Below are positions 4,527 through 55,437 of a stretch of 64,000 bases of DNA, in pieces. A program made the position numbers and the translations under genes. Numbering within the stretch: the stretch's first letter is position 1; each line of letters starts with the position of its first letter. The notes beneath the pieces were generated by a model. It ran no database searches. It saw nothing but the letters and a program-made list of their open reading frames with translations, and was not told where the DNA came from. Source of the stretch: Petroclostridium xylanilyticum (lineage in GTDB: Bacteria; Bacillota; Clostridia; SK-Y3); contig NZ_NPML01000019.1 in assembly GCF_002252565.1 (NCBI RefSeq), positions 558,001-622,000 on the forward strand. The letters run 5' to 3'.

Positions 4527-4606
4527 AAGATTGAGATTGAAATTAAGATTGAGTATAGGACAGCCATACTCACAATCTTAACCTTAATCTCAATCTTAAT
4601 CTTTCT
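4527..4606. repeat. Hexamer-repeat hairpin (AGATTG/AGATTA type)
   Basis: The left arm is tandem AGATTG, AGATTG, AAATTA, AGATTG units and the right arm their complement, closing on the loop GGACAGCC. It lies upstream of tatD, next to the ATCGATAAC element at 4614. Confidence 0.7.
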
Positions 4607-4613
4607 TATAATA

Positions 4614-4707
4614 AACCAACTTTAAAGCTAAATATTTAATTTTAAAGTTGGTTCATTTCATCGATAACTACATTAATTTATTTATAATTTTGATATTAGT
4701 TATCGAT
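4614..4707. repeat. ATCGATAAC element, copy 1
   Basis: Two adjacent palindromes: AACCAACTTTAAA paired with TTTAAAGTTGGTT, then ATCGATAACTA paired with TAGTTATCGAT. It starts one base past the TAG of metG. Copies 2, 3 and 4 are at 6970, 44229 and 55216. Confidence 0.8.
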
Positions 4708-4708
4708 A

Positions 4709-6694
4709 CTATCTAACTTTAGAACCGGAATCAATGTCCCCATCTACTGTAGCCAAGACAAGCTTCTCATCACCGGGTGTAGATGCGGCAAGGATCATGC
4801 CGTGGGATTCAACCCCTCTAAGTTTTACAGGCTGAAGATTCGCTATTACTATAAGATTCTTACCTACTAATTCTTCAGGAGTATAGTATTTTGCTATCCC
4901 CGAAACTACCTGACGAGTTTCATTACCTACTTGTAACTGAAGCTTTAGCAGTTTATCTGCGCCTTTGATCTTTTCAGCTGAAATTACTTTCGCTACTCTC
5001 AGATCTAGTTTGGCAAAATCATCTATGGAAATTAACTGTTGTTCTTCCTTTACATCTGCAACCTTTTTCTCTGCTTTTGCTGCAGTTTTATCTTCCGGCT
5101 TTACAGTTTGCTTTTGTACCTGCTGCTGTATTGTTTCCAATTCTTCAAGTTCTTTTTTAACATCAATTCTCGGGAATATGATTTCACCTTTATTTACTTT
5201 AAAATTTGCTTTTAATTTACCCCATATCTTTGAGCTTTCCCACTCGGTTTCCATACCTTTTTCAATGCCTATCTGCTGCCATATCACTGGAGAAGTATTT
5301 GGCATAAAAGGTTGAATAAGTATGGATATTATCCTTATACTTTCTGCCAGATTGTACAAAACAGCTGCCAGTCTTGGTTTTTGAGCTTCATCCTTGGCCA
5401 GTGCCCATGGCATGGTTTCATCTATATATTTGTTTGTTCTGGATACAAGCTTCCATATCTCTGTTAATGCACTGCTGAACTGCAGTTTATCCATTAATTC
5501 TTCCACTTTTGCCGTAGTGGATGCCGCAAGATTCTTCAGGTCTTCATCATAATCTCCTGCTTGTCTGTTTTCAGGCAGTTGCCCGCCAAAGTACTTGTCA
5601 ATCATTGCAACAGTCCTGCTTACCAGATTTCCGAGATCATTGGCAAGATCTGCATTAATCCTGTTGATTAGTGCTTCGTTAGAGAATATACCGTCTGCAC
5701 CAAAGGGAACTTCTCTTAATAGGAAATACCTGATCGCATCTACTCCATATTTATTCACCAATATAACCGGATCTACTACATTTCCTTTGGATTTAGACAT
5801 TTTACCGCCTTCAAGAAGCAGCCAGCCATGTCCGAATACCTGTTTTGGTAAGGGCTCACCTAATGCCATCAACATTGCAGGCCATATAATAGTGTGGAAA
5901 CGCACTATTTCCTTACCTACAAGATGAACATCGGCAGGCCAGTATTTTTTGTAATCCGAATCATCATCCGTTAAATATCCTAAAGCAGTGATATAGTTCG
6001 ACAATGCATCTACCCATACATATACCACATGCTTATCGTCAAAATTTACAGGAATTCCCCAGTTAAATGTTGTCCTGGATACGCACAGGTCTTCCAATCC
6101 TGGCCTTAAAAAATTATTCAACATCTCGTTTTGCCGGGACACAGGTTGAATAAATTCGGGATTTTCTTCTATAAGCTTTATCAGCTTATCCTGGTATTTT
6201 GATAAGCGGAAAAAATAGCTTTCCTCCTTGGTTAATTCTACCTCCCGTTCACAATCGGGACACTTGCCGTCTTTTAGCTGACGCTCGGTCCAGAAAGCTT
6301 CGCAGGGCGTACAATACCACCCTTCATATTCACTCTTATAGATATCACCACTATCATATAACTTTTTGAATATTTTTTGTACAACTTCTTCATGCTGTTT
6401 GTCAGTTGTTCTTATAAACCTATCATTAGAAATATCTAAAAGCTTCCACAATTCTTTTATACCTGCAACAATTTCATCTACATAGGCTTTAGGCGTCATT
6501 CCCTTTGCTTCAGCCTTTCTTTGAATCTTCTGTCCATGTTCATCTGTTCCGGTCAAGAACATGACGTCATAGCCTCTTAATCTTTTATATCGCGCCATAG
6601 CGTCAGCTGCCACAGTAGTATAAGAATGACCTATATGCAGTTTATCACTGGGATAGTATATAGGCGTTGTTATGTAAAAAGTTTTGCTGCTCAT
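4709..6694 (-). CDS. metG: Methionyl-tRNA synthetase
   Basis: Charges tRNA-Met with methionine. Class I synthetase of 661 residues: HIGH at residues 20-23, a zinc-knuckle pair (CTPC and CPDC, about residues 128-147), KMSKSKGN near 300, an anticodon-binding helical domain, a charged linker rich in K, E and Q, and a C-terminal OB-fold tRNA-binding domain (ISIDDFAKLDLRVAKV onward). GGAGGG precedes the ATG. No T-box leader is visible in the repeat-filled 330 bases upstream. A dispersed repeat abuts its stop codon. Confidence 0.96.
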   Translation of the reverse strand: MSSKTFYITTPIYYPSDKLHIGHSYTTVAADAMARYKRLRGYDVMFLTGTDEHGQKIQRKAEAKGMTPKAYVDEIVAGIKELWKLLDISNDRFIRTTDKQHEEVVQKIFKKLYDSGDIYKSEYEGWYCTPCEAFWTERQLKDGKCPDCEREVELTKEESYFFRLSKYQDKLIKLIEENPEFIQPVSRQNEMLNNFLRPGLEDLCVSRTTFNWGIPVNFDDKHVVYVWVDALSNYITALGYLTDDDSDYKKYWPADVHLVGKEIVRFHTIIWPAMLMALGEPLPKQVFGHGWLLLEGGKMSKSKGNVVDPVILVNKYGVDAIRYFLLREVPFGADGIFSNEALINRINADLANDLGNLVSRTVAMIDKYFGGQLPENRQAGDYDEDLKNLAASTTAKVEELMDKLQFSSALTEIWKLVSRTNKYIDETMPWALAKDEAQKPRLAAVLYNLAESIRIISILIQPFMPNTSPVIWQQIGIEKGMETEWESSKIWGKLKANFKVNKGEIIFPRIDVKKELEELETIQQQVQKQTVKPEDKTAAKAEKKVADVKEEQQLISIDDFAKLDLRVAKVISAEKIKGADKLLKLQLQVGNETRQVVSGIAKYYTPEELVGKNLIVIANLQPVKLRGVESHGMILAASTPGDEKLVLATVDGDIDSGSKVR

Positions 6695-6912: not shown

Positions 6913-6965
6913 GTTTTCAATTCTCCATTCTCCATTCTCAATTGTCAATTCTCAATTCTTTTTAT
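6913..6965. repeat. Degenerate heptamer repeat (CAATTCT type)
   Basis: About seven tandem 7-base units varying around CAATTCT/CCATTCT/CAATTGT, directly beside two other dispersed elements. The same unit recurs at 16671-16700. Confidence 0.65.
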
Positions 6966-6969
6966 AATT

Positions 6970-7064
6970 AACCAACTGTAAAACTAAATATTGTGATTTT
7001 AAAGTTGGTTAATTTCATCGATAACTACATTAATTTATTTTTAGCTTTAATATTGGTTATCGAT
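6970..7064. repeat. ATCGATAAC element, copy 2, overlapping the end of comB
   Basis: Same two-palindrome layout as copy 1. Its last 40 bases lie inside comB and encode roughly the final 13 residues (ISITNIKAKNKLM) and the TAG stop. Confidence 0.8.
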
Positions 7065-7774
7065 ATTATTCCATCGATAAATATTGGTACTAGTTGAAAA
7101 ACGTCTTGCTGCATACAAAATTCCACATCTTTCTCAAAATTCAACGAAATTAGCCTGCTGTAATGAAAAGTACCTTGTAATAACTGGTGCATGTCATCCT
7201 TGTTATGCTTATATAAATTTTCAGCTGCAATCCCTAGGTCATTCAAGCTAATATCGTTGCCCAAACTTTTTAGTTCATAAATTATTTTTCCTGCACATAA
7301 AATATCTTCTAAAGAAAAATGCCCCTCTGTACCGGCGCAAATAATTGTAATATCTTCTAAATAATTCTTATGTATATACTGTACAACAGCTTGTCCATTC
7401 AGAAAACTTGCTATAACAATATCAACCGCCTCTTTTGCATGATGAATCGCTCTTGTTCCATTTGTAGTTGTTATAATCACATACTTATTTTGCACTCTTT
7501 CAGCAGTGTATTCCAGCGGAGAATTTCCATGGTGGAATCCCTCAATAATTACAGCATTTCTTTCTCCTCCCAACAAACATTGTTCTGGATCCAATTCACA
7601 AGCCTTTGCTTTTGCCTGATCAACATCGCAGACAGGTATCACCCCTTTGCAACCATTTGAAAGAGCCGTCACAATGGTGCTTGTTGCTCTTAATACATCA
7701 ATAACAACAGCTAGTTTTCCCTTTACCATTTGGTCTTTTACCTCATCGGCTGTAGCAATAACATCGATTCGCAT
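7025..7774 (-). CDS. comB: 2-phosphosulfolactate phosphatase family protein ComB
   Basis: 249 residues of the ComB family, Mg-dependent phosphatases that act on 2-phosphosulfolactate in coenzyme M synthesis. Family motifs: VVIDVLRATSTIVTAL near residue 25, LLGGERN near 70, GFHHGNSP near 80, TTTNGTRAI near 102 and CAGTEGHFSLED near 145. In Clostridia no other coenzyme M genes are expected, so the true substrate is unknown. The C-terminal 13 residues are encoded by a dispersed repeat and are probably not ancestral. Confidence 0.85.
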   Translation of the reverse strand: MRIDVIATADEVKDQMVKGKLAVVIDVLRATSTIVTALSNGCKGVIPVCDVDQAKAKACELDPEQCLLGGERNAVIIEGFHHGNSPLEYTAERVQNKYVIITTTNGTRAIHHAKEAVDIVIASFLNGQAVVQYIHKNYLEDITIICAGTEGHFSLEDILCAGKIIYELKSLGNDISLNDLGIAAENLYKHNKDDMHQLLQGTFHYSRLISLNFEKDVEFCMQQDVFQLVPIFIDGIISITNIKAKNKLM

Positions 7775-10821: not shown

Positions 10822-10864
10822 GTTTGCTAACCTCCAGTGCTTTTTAATCTTAATATGTACATTG

Positions 10865-10989
10865 GGGCAAGTCGCATCATATATTTCATGTTTTGCCGCT
10901 TATACCGGCATCCGTGCCGGGATAATCCTAAAATCACCCTCCATGGTGATTTTCCGGCTGCAACATTCCATATATGATGCGACTTGCCC
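10865..10989. repeat. Structured three-way-junction element, copy 1
   Basis: Closed by a perfect 20-bp inverted repeat (10865-10884 with 10970-10989), then an inner stem (GCCG with CGGC), then hairpin CCGGCA-TCCG-TGCCGG (10905-10920) and hairpin AAATCACC/GGTGATTT (10931-10952). A second copy with different stem sequences but the same layout is at 39604. No known RNA family recognised. Confidence 0.65.
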
Positions 10990-11044
10990 GTCACAATGCA
11001 TGTAACGTATTTAGCGTTTTTTATATAAATTAAATGCACCTAAC

Positions 11045-13994: not shown

Positions 13995-14108
13995 ACCAAC
14001 CTCTTTGTATATAAACCATAAACCGTATTTTACATTCACCCAAACGTACCAAACGTATCTCATCAGGTATTATATGATTGCTGCATAACATATTTATGAT
14101 GTGTCATA

Positions 14109-14180
14109 GTGGGGAGTGGACAGTGGGGAGTGTTTTTTGAACTTGATCGGCAATTTACTCCCCACTCCTCACTCCCCACT
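14109..14180. repeat. Heptamer-repeat hairpin (GGGGAGT type)
   Basis: 24-base arms AGTGGGGAGTGGACAGTGGG... and their complement (14157-14180), 22 of 24 pairing, built from GGGGAGT-like units. Half-copies occur near 38241 and 58190. Confidence 0.7.
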
Positions 14181-14253
14181 ACTTCGCACTTTAAATATAT
14201 TGTTTGCCTTACCATTCATTCAGGAGTAATAAATTTTTGTGAAGTAATAATTC

Positions 14254-20369: not shown

Positions 20370-21130
20370 GATTTCCTAACAGCAGTTCTATTAATACCCG
20401 TTACTCTTGATATCTGCAGAACAGACATGCCTTCTATTTCCTTGGCTTTTTTCAAAATACTATTTCTTTTTTCGATATCTAATCTTTGTATATCCGATAT
20501 GTTTTTTAAATTACCTATTTCTTTTATAATATCTCTTGTTTTCTCATCGGTTAATTTAACTTTATTTTCTATTTCCAGGCATTTATCATCGTTAGGCTCG
20601 TTCATGTAATCAATATACCTTTTTATCGCTAGGTCTTTATTCTTTGATAGTATTCCTAGAAAAAATTCCGTATCAATGATTGTTTGGCCGTTTTTATGTA
20701 TATAACTATTGTAGCTACTCCATTTATAATCTTCCATACTCGATAATCCGGCTTTTACAGGGTTTTGGTGTATATACCTTATTACCGTACAAAAATAGCT
20801 ATCACTTTCCACCGTTTCGCTCTTATACCTATCTTGAAATAAATGTCCGTTCCTTTCATACTTCCAATTAAAATAATAGACATAACTTGTACCAATCTTT
20901 TTCAATATTTTTGATATTTCTACTTCCTTTTCTCTTATGAGCAAATGGACATGATTATTCATTAAGCAATACGCATAAATTTCAAAATTAGTTTCCTTTT
21001 TAAATCTCTCTAATGTTTCTATATATCTTTGTCTATCTTCATCATCTTCAAAAATGTCTTGTTGATTGATTCCTCTTACCATAATATGATATATCCCCGA
21101 ACTGCTTTTCTCTCTTGCTACTCTTGGCAC
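20366..21130 (-). mobile_element. REP-associated tyrosine (Y1, IS200-like) transposase gene
   Basis: 254-residue RAYT/TnpA_REP protein: single-strand DNA transposase with an HUH pair in NNHVHLLIRE near residue 62 and the tyrosine region further on (RYIHQNPVKAG is a family hallmark). A C-terminal helical part ends with an HTH-like SVLQISRVTGINRTAVRKS. GTG at 21130 has GAGGTG six bases upstream; an in-frame GTG at 21139 is the alternative. Inverted GGGACGGTTCT repeats flank the gene, and the same core recurs elsewhere in the window. Appears intact. Confidence 0.88.
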
Positions 21131-25819: not shown

Positions 25820-25946
25820 TATATATTTACTGATAATGATTTTACATGGCAGATAAAGTCAATAAGTTCACAGTTCACGGTTCACAGTAAAAGCTATTAA
25901 ATCGTTTACTACTGTGAACTGAGAACTGTTAACCGTGAACTATATA
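25820..25946. mobile_element. 127-bp MITE-like element with TATATA ends, copy 1
   Basis: Begins TATATATTTACTGATAATG and ends GTGAACTATATA; the inner part is a hairpin of GTTCACA-type heptamers with the loop AAGCTATTAAATCGTTTA. Copy 2 (55273-55399, opposite orientation) has the same length and differs at five positions by my alignment. No coding capacity. Confidence 0.82.
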
Positions 25947-38240: not shown

Positions 38241-38560
38241 GGGGAGTGGGGAGTAAAATCCACACAGTCGCTGCTCATGCGATTTTCATCATCATTTGTG
38301 ACCTGTTGTGGAAGGTTACAGTGGTTAATAGTTAATACATAAAGATATATATAAATAACACTAAGTATGTCACATTATTGTTATTTTGTTCACGGTTCAC
38401 AGTTCTCAGTTCACAGAAATTAGCCAAGAAAATACCGTGAACTGTGAACTGTGAACTAAAATAGACAATGTAAAGTACTTAGTAATACTTATATAGATAT
38501 AGAAATAGATAAAGATACAGATAAAGATTTGGGTATAGTCTTTATCTATATCTTTATCTT
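38241..38560. repeat. Intergenic stretch with three types of short-unit repeat
   Basis: GGGGAGTGGGGAGT (about 38241-38255, one arm only); a GTTCACG hairpin (38388-38457) whose inverted flanks (ACTAAGTA left, TACTTAGT right) lengthen the arms; and a GATAAA hairpin (38494-38560) whose right arm contains the stop codon of the next gene. No gene seen. Confidence 0.7.
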
Positions 38561-44085: not shown

Positions 44086-44228
44086 GTCACTCATCCTTTT
44101 TGTTAAATATTTATACTTATTATAACATAAAACATTAAAAATGAGGAGTAGACGTTGCATCATTATGTATAGGTAAAAAAAGTAAAGACTATTGCCGATG
44201 TATCAACAATAGCCTTCCTCTTATAATT

Positions 44229-44317
44229 AACCGACTCTAAAACTAAAAATTATCATTTTAAAGTTGGTTAATTTCATCGATAACTACATTCATTTATTTT
44301 TAATATAGGGTATAGAT
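44229..44317. repeat. ATCGATAAC element, copy 3 (right end decayed)
   Basis: AACCGACTCTAAAACTAAAA to AAAGTTGGTTAATTTCATCG and ATAACTACATT match copies 1 and 2, but the closing GGTTATCGAT has been lost. It lies past the stop of the coat gene at 44344. Confidence 0.7.
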
Positions 44318-44343
44318 ATAAATTATTTAACTTTTATTATATC

Positions 44344-46992: not shown

Positions 46993-47133
46993 CCTCACTC
47001 CATTTGCTCAATTAAGAATTAAAAGTTAAAAACGATTTGGAACGCACTAAAAATCTTGTATTAATTTTTGTATTTTGCATGCGCATCACAATTGCAACTC
47101 CAATGTAAAATCATTATTGCGTTATATAAATCT

Positions 47134-49040: not shown

Positions 49041-49109
49041 GTCAGGTTGTATCATATACTTTATTAACGTTCACGTTAATCTACCCCCCCTATCACTCGT
49101 AAGGTTTGT

Positions 49110-49265
49110 AGCATCTACGATACAGGCAGGTCTCCTGGCTCAGAATCATCACAGCTTTACGCCTTCCCAGTTACTCCAGTGGCATTATGCAAAACCGCTC
49201 CTCTTTACAGTGGCGTGACCGCGCAGGATTTACACCTGCTTCCCTATTATGCATTGCTGCACCTA
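49110..49265 (-). ncRNA. Cobalamin (B12) riboswitch
   Basis: On the minus strand, in order: GGGAAGCAGGTG, AAATCCTGCGCGGTCACGCC, ACTGTAA, the B12-box part GCCACTG, GGGAAGGCG and the 3' CTGAGCCAGGAGACCTGCC. These are the conserved pieces of the cobalamin element. It controls cbiMNQO, shutting cobalt uptake when B12 is plentiful. Confidence 0.95.
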
Positions 49266-49398
49266 TATCTGGTTTTATTATATCTTTTAAAATCCTTTTC
49301 GTCTATAAAATATCTTTATTTATTTTGTAATTTATTTCACAACAAAAAAACAGCTCACTGATCTACAAGGCTAAGAGCCTGTAAACTTGCGTCTAAGG

Positions 49399-55215: not shown

Positions 55216-55437
55216 GCGAAGTTTAAAATTCAATATTTCCTTAATACAAACTTCGCGAATTTCATCGATAACTATATAGTTCACAGTTAACAGCTCTCAG
55301 TTCACAGTAATAAACGATTTAATAGCTTTTACTGTGAACCGTGAACTGTGAACTTATTTACTTTATCTTCCATGTAAAATCATTATCAGTAAATATATAC
55401 TTTAATTTATTTTTAACTTTAATACTGGTTATCGATG
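55216..55437. repeat. ATCGATAAC element, copy 4, split by a 127-bp insertion
   Basis: Left part 55216-55272 (arms GCGAAGTTTAAAA and AACTTCGC, then TTTCATCGATAACTA) and right part 55400-55437 (CTTTAATTTATTTTTAAC to TGGTTATCGAT) rejoin into the consensus when 55273-55399 is removed less one TA. The outer arm sequence differs from copies 1-3 but is still palindromic. Confidence 0.78.
55273..55399. mobile_element. 127-bp MITE-like element with TATATA ends, copy 2
   Basis: Reverse complement of 25820-25946 with five mismatches by hand alignment and no gaps. It interrupts an ATCGATAAC element at a TA. Confidence 0.85.

Follow-up and report, generated by a model that had tools for sequence, protein, structure and literature searches.

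How did a 127-bp sequence that occurs twice in a 64,000-nucleotide stretch of Petroclostridium xylanilyticum DNA (the window) come to lie inside an older dispersed repeat, and from what kind of element does it descend? In the following, we refer to the family of this sequence as M1 and to the interrupted repeat by its motif, ATCGATAAC.

A 127-bp element inside an older repeat

The initial annotation had described two 127-bp copies in opposite orientation with five differences and TATATA ends (Table 1), and direct alignment reproduced all of this. When 55273-55399 was compared with the reverse complement of 25820-25946, exactly five mismatches were found (positions 13, 22, 38, 87 and 97), and TATATA was present at both termini of each copy. 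It had also been claimed that the former copy splits an older repeat, which excision together with one TA would rebuild. Joining position 55272 via one TA to position 55400 indeed yields ...TTTCATCGATAACTACTTTAATTTATTTTTAACTTTAATACTGGTTATCGAT, while the intact repeat copy at 6957-7073 reads TTTCATCGATAACTACATTAATTTATTTTTAGCTTTAATATTGGTTATCGAT.

The motif ATCGATAAC occurs seven times in the window vs 0.34 expected occurrences. The repeats, of which 40 places out of 95 candidates were scored, are about 113 bp long, start with TATAATTAACCAACTTTAA, finish with TTAATATTGGTTATCGATATA and comprise two or more subtypes that differ in their hairpin. They carry TATA at both termini and weak inverted ends (AACCAAnnTTAA), and the repeat probably represents a MITE with TA ends in its own right. 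Because the ends of a different IS630 in a family member (G004), which are of the type TATAGATAACCAAAAT, look alike by eye, the repeat is plausibly another IS630-type MITE.

Six M1 copies reside within ATCGATAAC repeats (L001, L003, L055, L059, L065 and L088), where they occupy several different TAs. Uninterrupted ATCGATAAC repeats of the same genome served as paralogous empty sites. In all six cases, removal of the element and one TA brings back the repeat consensus, as judged by eye against the alignment, and this fixes the TA duplication with no need for a second strain. The same boundaries emerged from all six nested insertions, in keeping with the element ends and TA target duplication proposed at the outset, and the suggested order of events, with M1 arriving after the older repeat, was borne out as well. 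Six nested copies compare with a rough expectation of about 0.5, calculated on the assumption that the intergenic 15% alone is available; a preference for A+T-rich targets could explain part of this excess.

Table 1. Positions of M1, its parts and related features (window coordinates unless a contig is given)
Feature	Position	Strand	Remarks
M1 copy, 127 bp (locus L001)	55273..55399	+	heptad end left, TTACTG (IS630 3'-end-like) end right
Further M1 copy	25820..25946	-	5 differences from 55273-55399
TA target duplication, left copy	55273..55274	.	empty-site reconstruction; one of the two TAs is that of the restored target
TA target duplication, right copy	55398..55399	.	empty-site reconstruction
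Heptad-side end TATATAGTTCACAGTTAA	55273..55290	+	weaker match to ISBs2-group IS630 5' end (TATATAGATTACGATAA); 7/1000 shuffles
Hairpin arm 1, four heptads	55279..55306	+	GTTCACA GTTAACA GCTCTCA GTTCACA
Hairpin arm 2, three heptads	55332..55354	+	CTGTGAA CCGTGAA CTGTGAA CT
Tail ATGTAAAATCATTATCAGTAAATATATA	55372..55399	+	matches ISBs2-group IS630 3' end; ATGTAA is transposase gene end; 0/1000 shuffles
Interrupted ATCGATAAC repeat, left part	55216..55274	+	subtype with hairpin GCGAAGTTT...AAACTTCGCG, common to locus L003
Interrupted ATCGATAAC repeat, right part	55398..55437	+	
Uninterrupted ATCGATAAC repeat	4600..4712	+	paralogous empty site
Uninterrupted ATCGATAAC repeat	6957..7069	+	paralogous empty site
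ATCGATAAC repeat, diverged copy	44216..44328	+	
M3 MITE copy	38348..38495	+	TATATA ends resemble those of another ISBs2-group IS630 subtype; GTTCACR core, different loop
Decayed IS630 fragments, host genome	C29:263514-263872 and 265519-265746		

Copy number, placement and target sites

A search of the whole genome with the element had been proposed as a check. Using 22 bases of the conserved end as a pattern, with up to three mismatches allowed, we found 52 copies of M1 in the 3.86-Mb genome vs none for the reversed-pattern control; copies were flanked by TA, and empty sites were recovered in repeats. At least two additional copies (L284 and L294) bear a one-base deletion within the 22-base stretch. 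The length of M1 varies from 106 to 157 bp, mostly in 7-bp steps, and is too small for a transposase gene. M1 is short, multi-copy and free of a transposase gene, as expected of a MITE.

Almost all copies are intergenic and often lie less than 50 bp from an open frame; an open frame of at least 100 codons is hit by three of 35 copies, in two cases close to the 5' end of the frame. Relative to tandem genes no orientation bias was detected (13 vs 12). The mean divergence from the consensus is 4-6%, which suggests that the amplification is not very old and need not be ongoing. Full-length M1 was absent from all 40 other genomes searched, all of other genera, no exact match to its end was found in genome_contigs or viral_contigs, and plasmids and phages gave no match. 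A genome from the same family as the host (G001) contains a 73-bp M1 remnant with 95% identity (L031).

At the 35 clean-ended copies, C immediately precedes the TA in 16 (p = 1.6e-7) and G immediately follows it in 23 (p = 1e-13), with CTAG at eight (p = 1.2e-8) and a C/G background of 11-12% in the flanks. IS630 reportedly prefers CTAG as target (Tenzen and Ohtsubo 1991, cited in PMC2170065), a trait that does not define all members, and the C-TA-G preference at M1 sites agrees with this. Palindromic targets wider than C-TA-G were not in excess (p = 0.5 over 12 positions). Outside the C-TA-G base the flanks share only local A+T richness, and thus the similarity between copies stops at TATATA. 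Similarity running past these ends, which the first reading had named as evidence against itself, was looked for among the copies and is absent.

Relationship to IS630 elements of the ISBs2 group

The TTACTG-side 28 bp or so of M1 correspond to the 3' terminus of ISBs2-group IS630, including the transposase stop codon. The group name derives from the annotation of relatives on Geobacillus plasmids; further relatives were found in Bacillota Ch29, Clostridium and Anoxybacillus. The IS630 used for comparison is that of G135, a Bacillota MAG which the genome_contigs scan matched to isolate Ch29, and in an end-anchored comparison with its 3' end none of 1000 shuffles scored as high. The Ch29 IS was also the best match among 28 ends of ISBs2-group elements of named genomes (score 47 vs a shuffle maximum of 40). 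The Ch29 elements, intact or nearly so, terminate in CTGCGAATGTAAAATCATTATCGTAATCTATATA, the M1 equivalent being CTGCCATGTAAAATCATTATCAGTAAATATATA; with ATGTAA the transposase gene of the IS comes to its end. The Ch29 copies are also bounded by TATATA...TATATA, mostly with C on the left and G on the right. The heptad-side end of M1 resembles the 5' end of the Ch29 IS more than the 3' end; here, 7 of 1000 shuffles scored equally well. Both M1 termini show TATATA and, imperfectly, TATATA.TT.AC.G.TAA, but as inverted repeats of one another they match poorly, 393 of 2000 shuffles being equally good.

The C-TA-G flanks and the match of the TTACTG-side end to the ISBs2-group 3' terminus favor the IS630/Tc1-mariner-type origin that had been suggested. 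From these sequence comparisons we conclude that M1 is an internal-deletion derivative of an ISBs2-group IS. The 127-bp element is very probably a non-autonomous MITE derived from ISBs2-group IS630 (Tc1/mariner superfamily) and presumably mobilized in trans.

As noted before, the window encodes no transposase for the element: tblastn with an intact IS630 relative gave no match there. A search for an IS630-type transposase gene with matching ends, another check proposed initially, succeeded in Ch29 and yielded fragments only in the host. Here, the DDE_3 profile detected just two sub-threshold fragments, in an assembly of 41 contigs from which multi-copy IS may be missing. The host IS630 pieces share 92-94% DNA identity with the Ch29 IS, and GAATGTAAAATCTTTATTGTAATATATATA, a sequence downstream of one of them, resembles the M1 tail. 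With nothing but broken pieces of IS630 in the host genome, the transposase that moved M1 would have been lost, have decayed or be unassembled. The lack of an autonomous partner in the host weakens the claim of present mobility, not that of the origin of M1. An IS630 transposase acting in trans would bind both M1 ends, excise the element and join it to a TA; in this way M1 may have spread to its approximately 50, nearly all intergenic sites, some of which lie in the older repeat.

Some other features of the window were recorded. At 47098-47130, a 16-base identity to an IS630 3' end (AATGTAAAATCATTAT) is followed by TTATATA, possibly a relic of an IS630 end or due to chance. Positions 49108-49281 and 10852-11005 (minus strand) correspond to a Cobalamin riboswitch and, just above the cut-off, a TwoAYGGAY RNA, respectively. 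A Y1 (IS200-type) transposase domain, one of 12 such matches in the genome, is encoded at 20762-21103 (minus strand) in a 259-codon open frame.

The heptad hairpin, a second family and apparent hybrids

Read from its conserved end, M1 consists of TATATATTTACTGATAATGATTTTACATGGCAGATAAAGT(A/C)AATAA, heptads GTTCAC(A/G), the loop AAAAGCTATTAAATCGTTTACTAC, heptads in the facing arm and GTGAACTATATA. Its central part forms a hairpin with arms of tandem heptads, and a strong fold is predicted for both strands (z -5.0 to -6.3). In all 46 measurable copies the arm lengths are 3 mod 7 and 6 mod 7, an arm having between one and six units, and the length of one arm does not follow that of the other (rho 0.02). 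Compensatory co-variation of the arms was ruled out, there being no correlation. Change by whole units in arms that vary independently suggests slippage or recombination instead of selection that keeps the arms matched, and we infer that 7-bp units are gained and lost by replication slippage or by recombination inside the arrays.

In the host genome, 257 occurrences of the heptad pair GTTCACRGTTCAC were counted (control 0). Of 46 heptad clusters drawn from the first 100 of these places, about half are M1, six belong to a second family, M3, and the remainder are neither or are truncated copies. Hairpins or arrays of heptads that have other loops and lack IS630 ends occur at host loci L279-L296 and also in G001 and G003; by eye, consistent flanks were not seen around stand-alone arrays. 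Facing GTTCACR arrays lie in the 16S rRNA leader at L282, L292 and L296 and beside 5S rRNA at L283 and L295. At L280 and L281, heptad arrays are followed by a common downstream sequence with a third unit, AATTGAG/AATTGAC. A hairpin at 14087-14201 of the window has a like architecture, with the unrelated heptad AGTGGGG/AGTGGAC in each arm. A text search of the literature for the heptad sequence returned nothing relevant.

M3 comprises about 17 genome copies in which heptads surround another loop between the ends TATATAAATAACACTAAGTATGTTACATT and TATATAAGTATTACTAAGTACTTTACATT. The best match to TATATAAATAACACTAAGTATGTTACATT is an ISBs2-group IS of Clostridiaceae UBA7994 (score 42 vs a shuffle maximum of 39). 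One M3 copy (L172) lies inside a ATCGATAAC repeat, which is rebuilt when the copy is removed and one TA is left. Three loci appear to combine parts of different families: L187 has the inner tail of M1 with the loop and end of M3, L188 (L297) the hairpin of M1 with the inner tail of M3, and L091 the tail of M1 with a loop otherwise found at L298. By inspection, the switch points of all of these lie within or adjoin the heptads, and the loci look like chimeras that join parts of different families through heptads. Recombination via heptad arrays would now and then join parts of different MITE families. As a tentative and somewhat doubtful extension, the heptad hairpin may be an exchangeable module, in which recombination at GTTCACR swaps loops and IS630-type ends and creates hybrid MITEs that different IS630 subgroups can spread.

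Alternative explanations

The strong hairpin could also belong to an HUH element of the IS200/IS605 or RAYT/REP-like kind, a single strand of which is moved by a Y1 transposase with no target duplication. The 12 Y1_Tnp matches of the genome, of which several lie in open frames of roughly 255 aa and one in the window, and the hairpin predicted on either strand would suit such an element. However, TA is duplicated at both M1 ends in six nested insertions, the flanks are C-TA-G and otherwise variable instead of presenting a fixed left target of 4-5 bases, the surroundings of ten Y1 matches contained heptads or TTACTG ends only as stray matches, and the M1 end matches an IS630 end. We therefore consider this explanation extremely unlikely. 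Equally improbable is an immobile M1, in which case recombination would have multiplied a conserved hairpin that acts between genes as a regulator or terminator. Its nearly exclusive intergenic location, often within 50 bp of an open frame, and its predicted RNA hairpin would be expected of such a sequence, but exact, TA-bounded insertions in another repeat would not; in addition, M1 has no orientation bias relative to tandem genes, no Rfam match at gathering scores, and no full-length counterpart in any other genus searched.

It is likewise very unlikely that mobility resides in the heptad hairpin, with the IS630-like ends carried along as passengers. The abundance of the exact heptad pair and the hairpins and arrays that lack IS630 ends in the host, G001 and G003 argue for this reading, whereas the exact TATATA ends and TA duplications of M1 are not expected from a heptad-only mechanism, and the stand-alone arrays showed no consistent flanks by eye.

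Discussion

A close counterpart of M1 as an IS630-derived MITE is RUP of Streptococcus pneumoniae, a gene-free element of about 107 bp with about 108 copies, for which mobilization by IS630-Spn1 has been proposed (PMC2229807). Like M1, RUP has IS630-like ends, targets TA and sits inside other mobile elements, and according to a 2007 review it was the only bacterial repeat then linked in this way to a parent transposase (PMC2229807). The passages on RUP in that source describe neither a heptad array nor arm-length variation, which sets it apart from M1 by description, and unlike RUP, M1 has its presumed parent IS in the host as fragments only. With the ISBs2 group of IS630, M1 shares the 3' terminal 28 bp or so, TATATA ends and the TA target, but it lacks the transposase gene and its heptad-side end is weakly similar. 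BrickBuilt of Porphyromonas gingivalis is also an intergenic MITE holding a tandem-repeat array; by description, its unit has 23 bp, in contrast to the 7-bp unit of M1 in two facing arms (PMC4596501). Intergenic 7-bp tandem units are known as TAACTGA heptamers from Beggiatoaceae, Cyanobacteria and Bacteroidetes (PMC4679880), and the unit type AACTGAG/AACTGTT seen here resembles them. Those repeats form direct arrays, mostly just upstream of genes, and not hairpins inside MITEs (PMC4679880).

M1 is mostly a known kind of element and leaves the general view of bacterial transposition unchanged; the unusual part is the seemingly swappable seven-base hairpin. The origin of M1 was identified from similarity that extends across the end of the transposase gene of the parent element, and six nested insertions settle the target duplication without another strain. 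From the heptad arms one can read how units of 7 bp were gained and lost within a transposable hairpin, and the loci that look like hybrids hint at a route by which MITE families may swap their ends.
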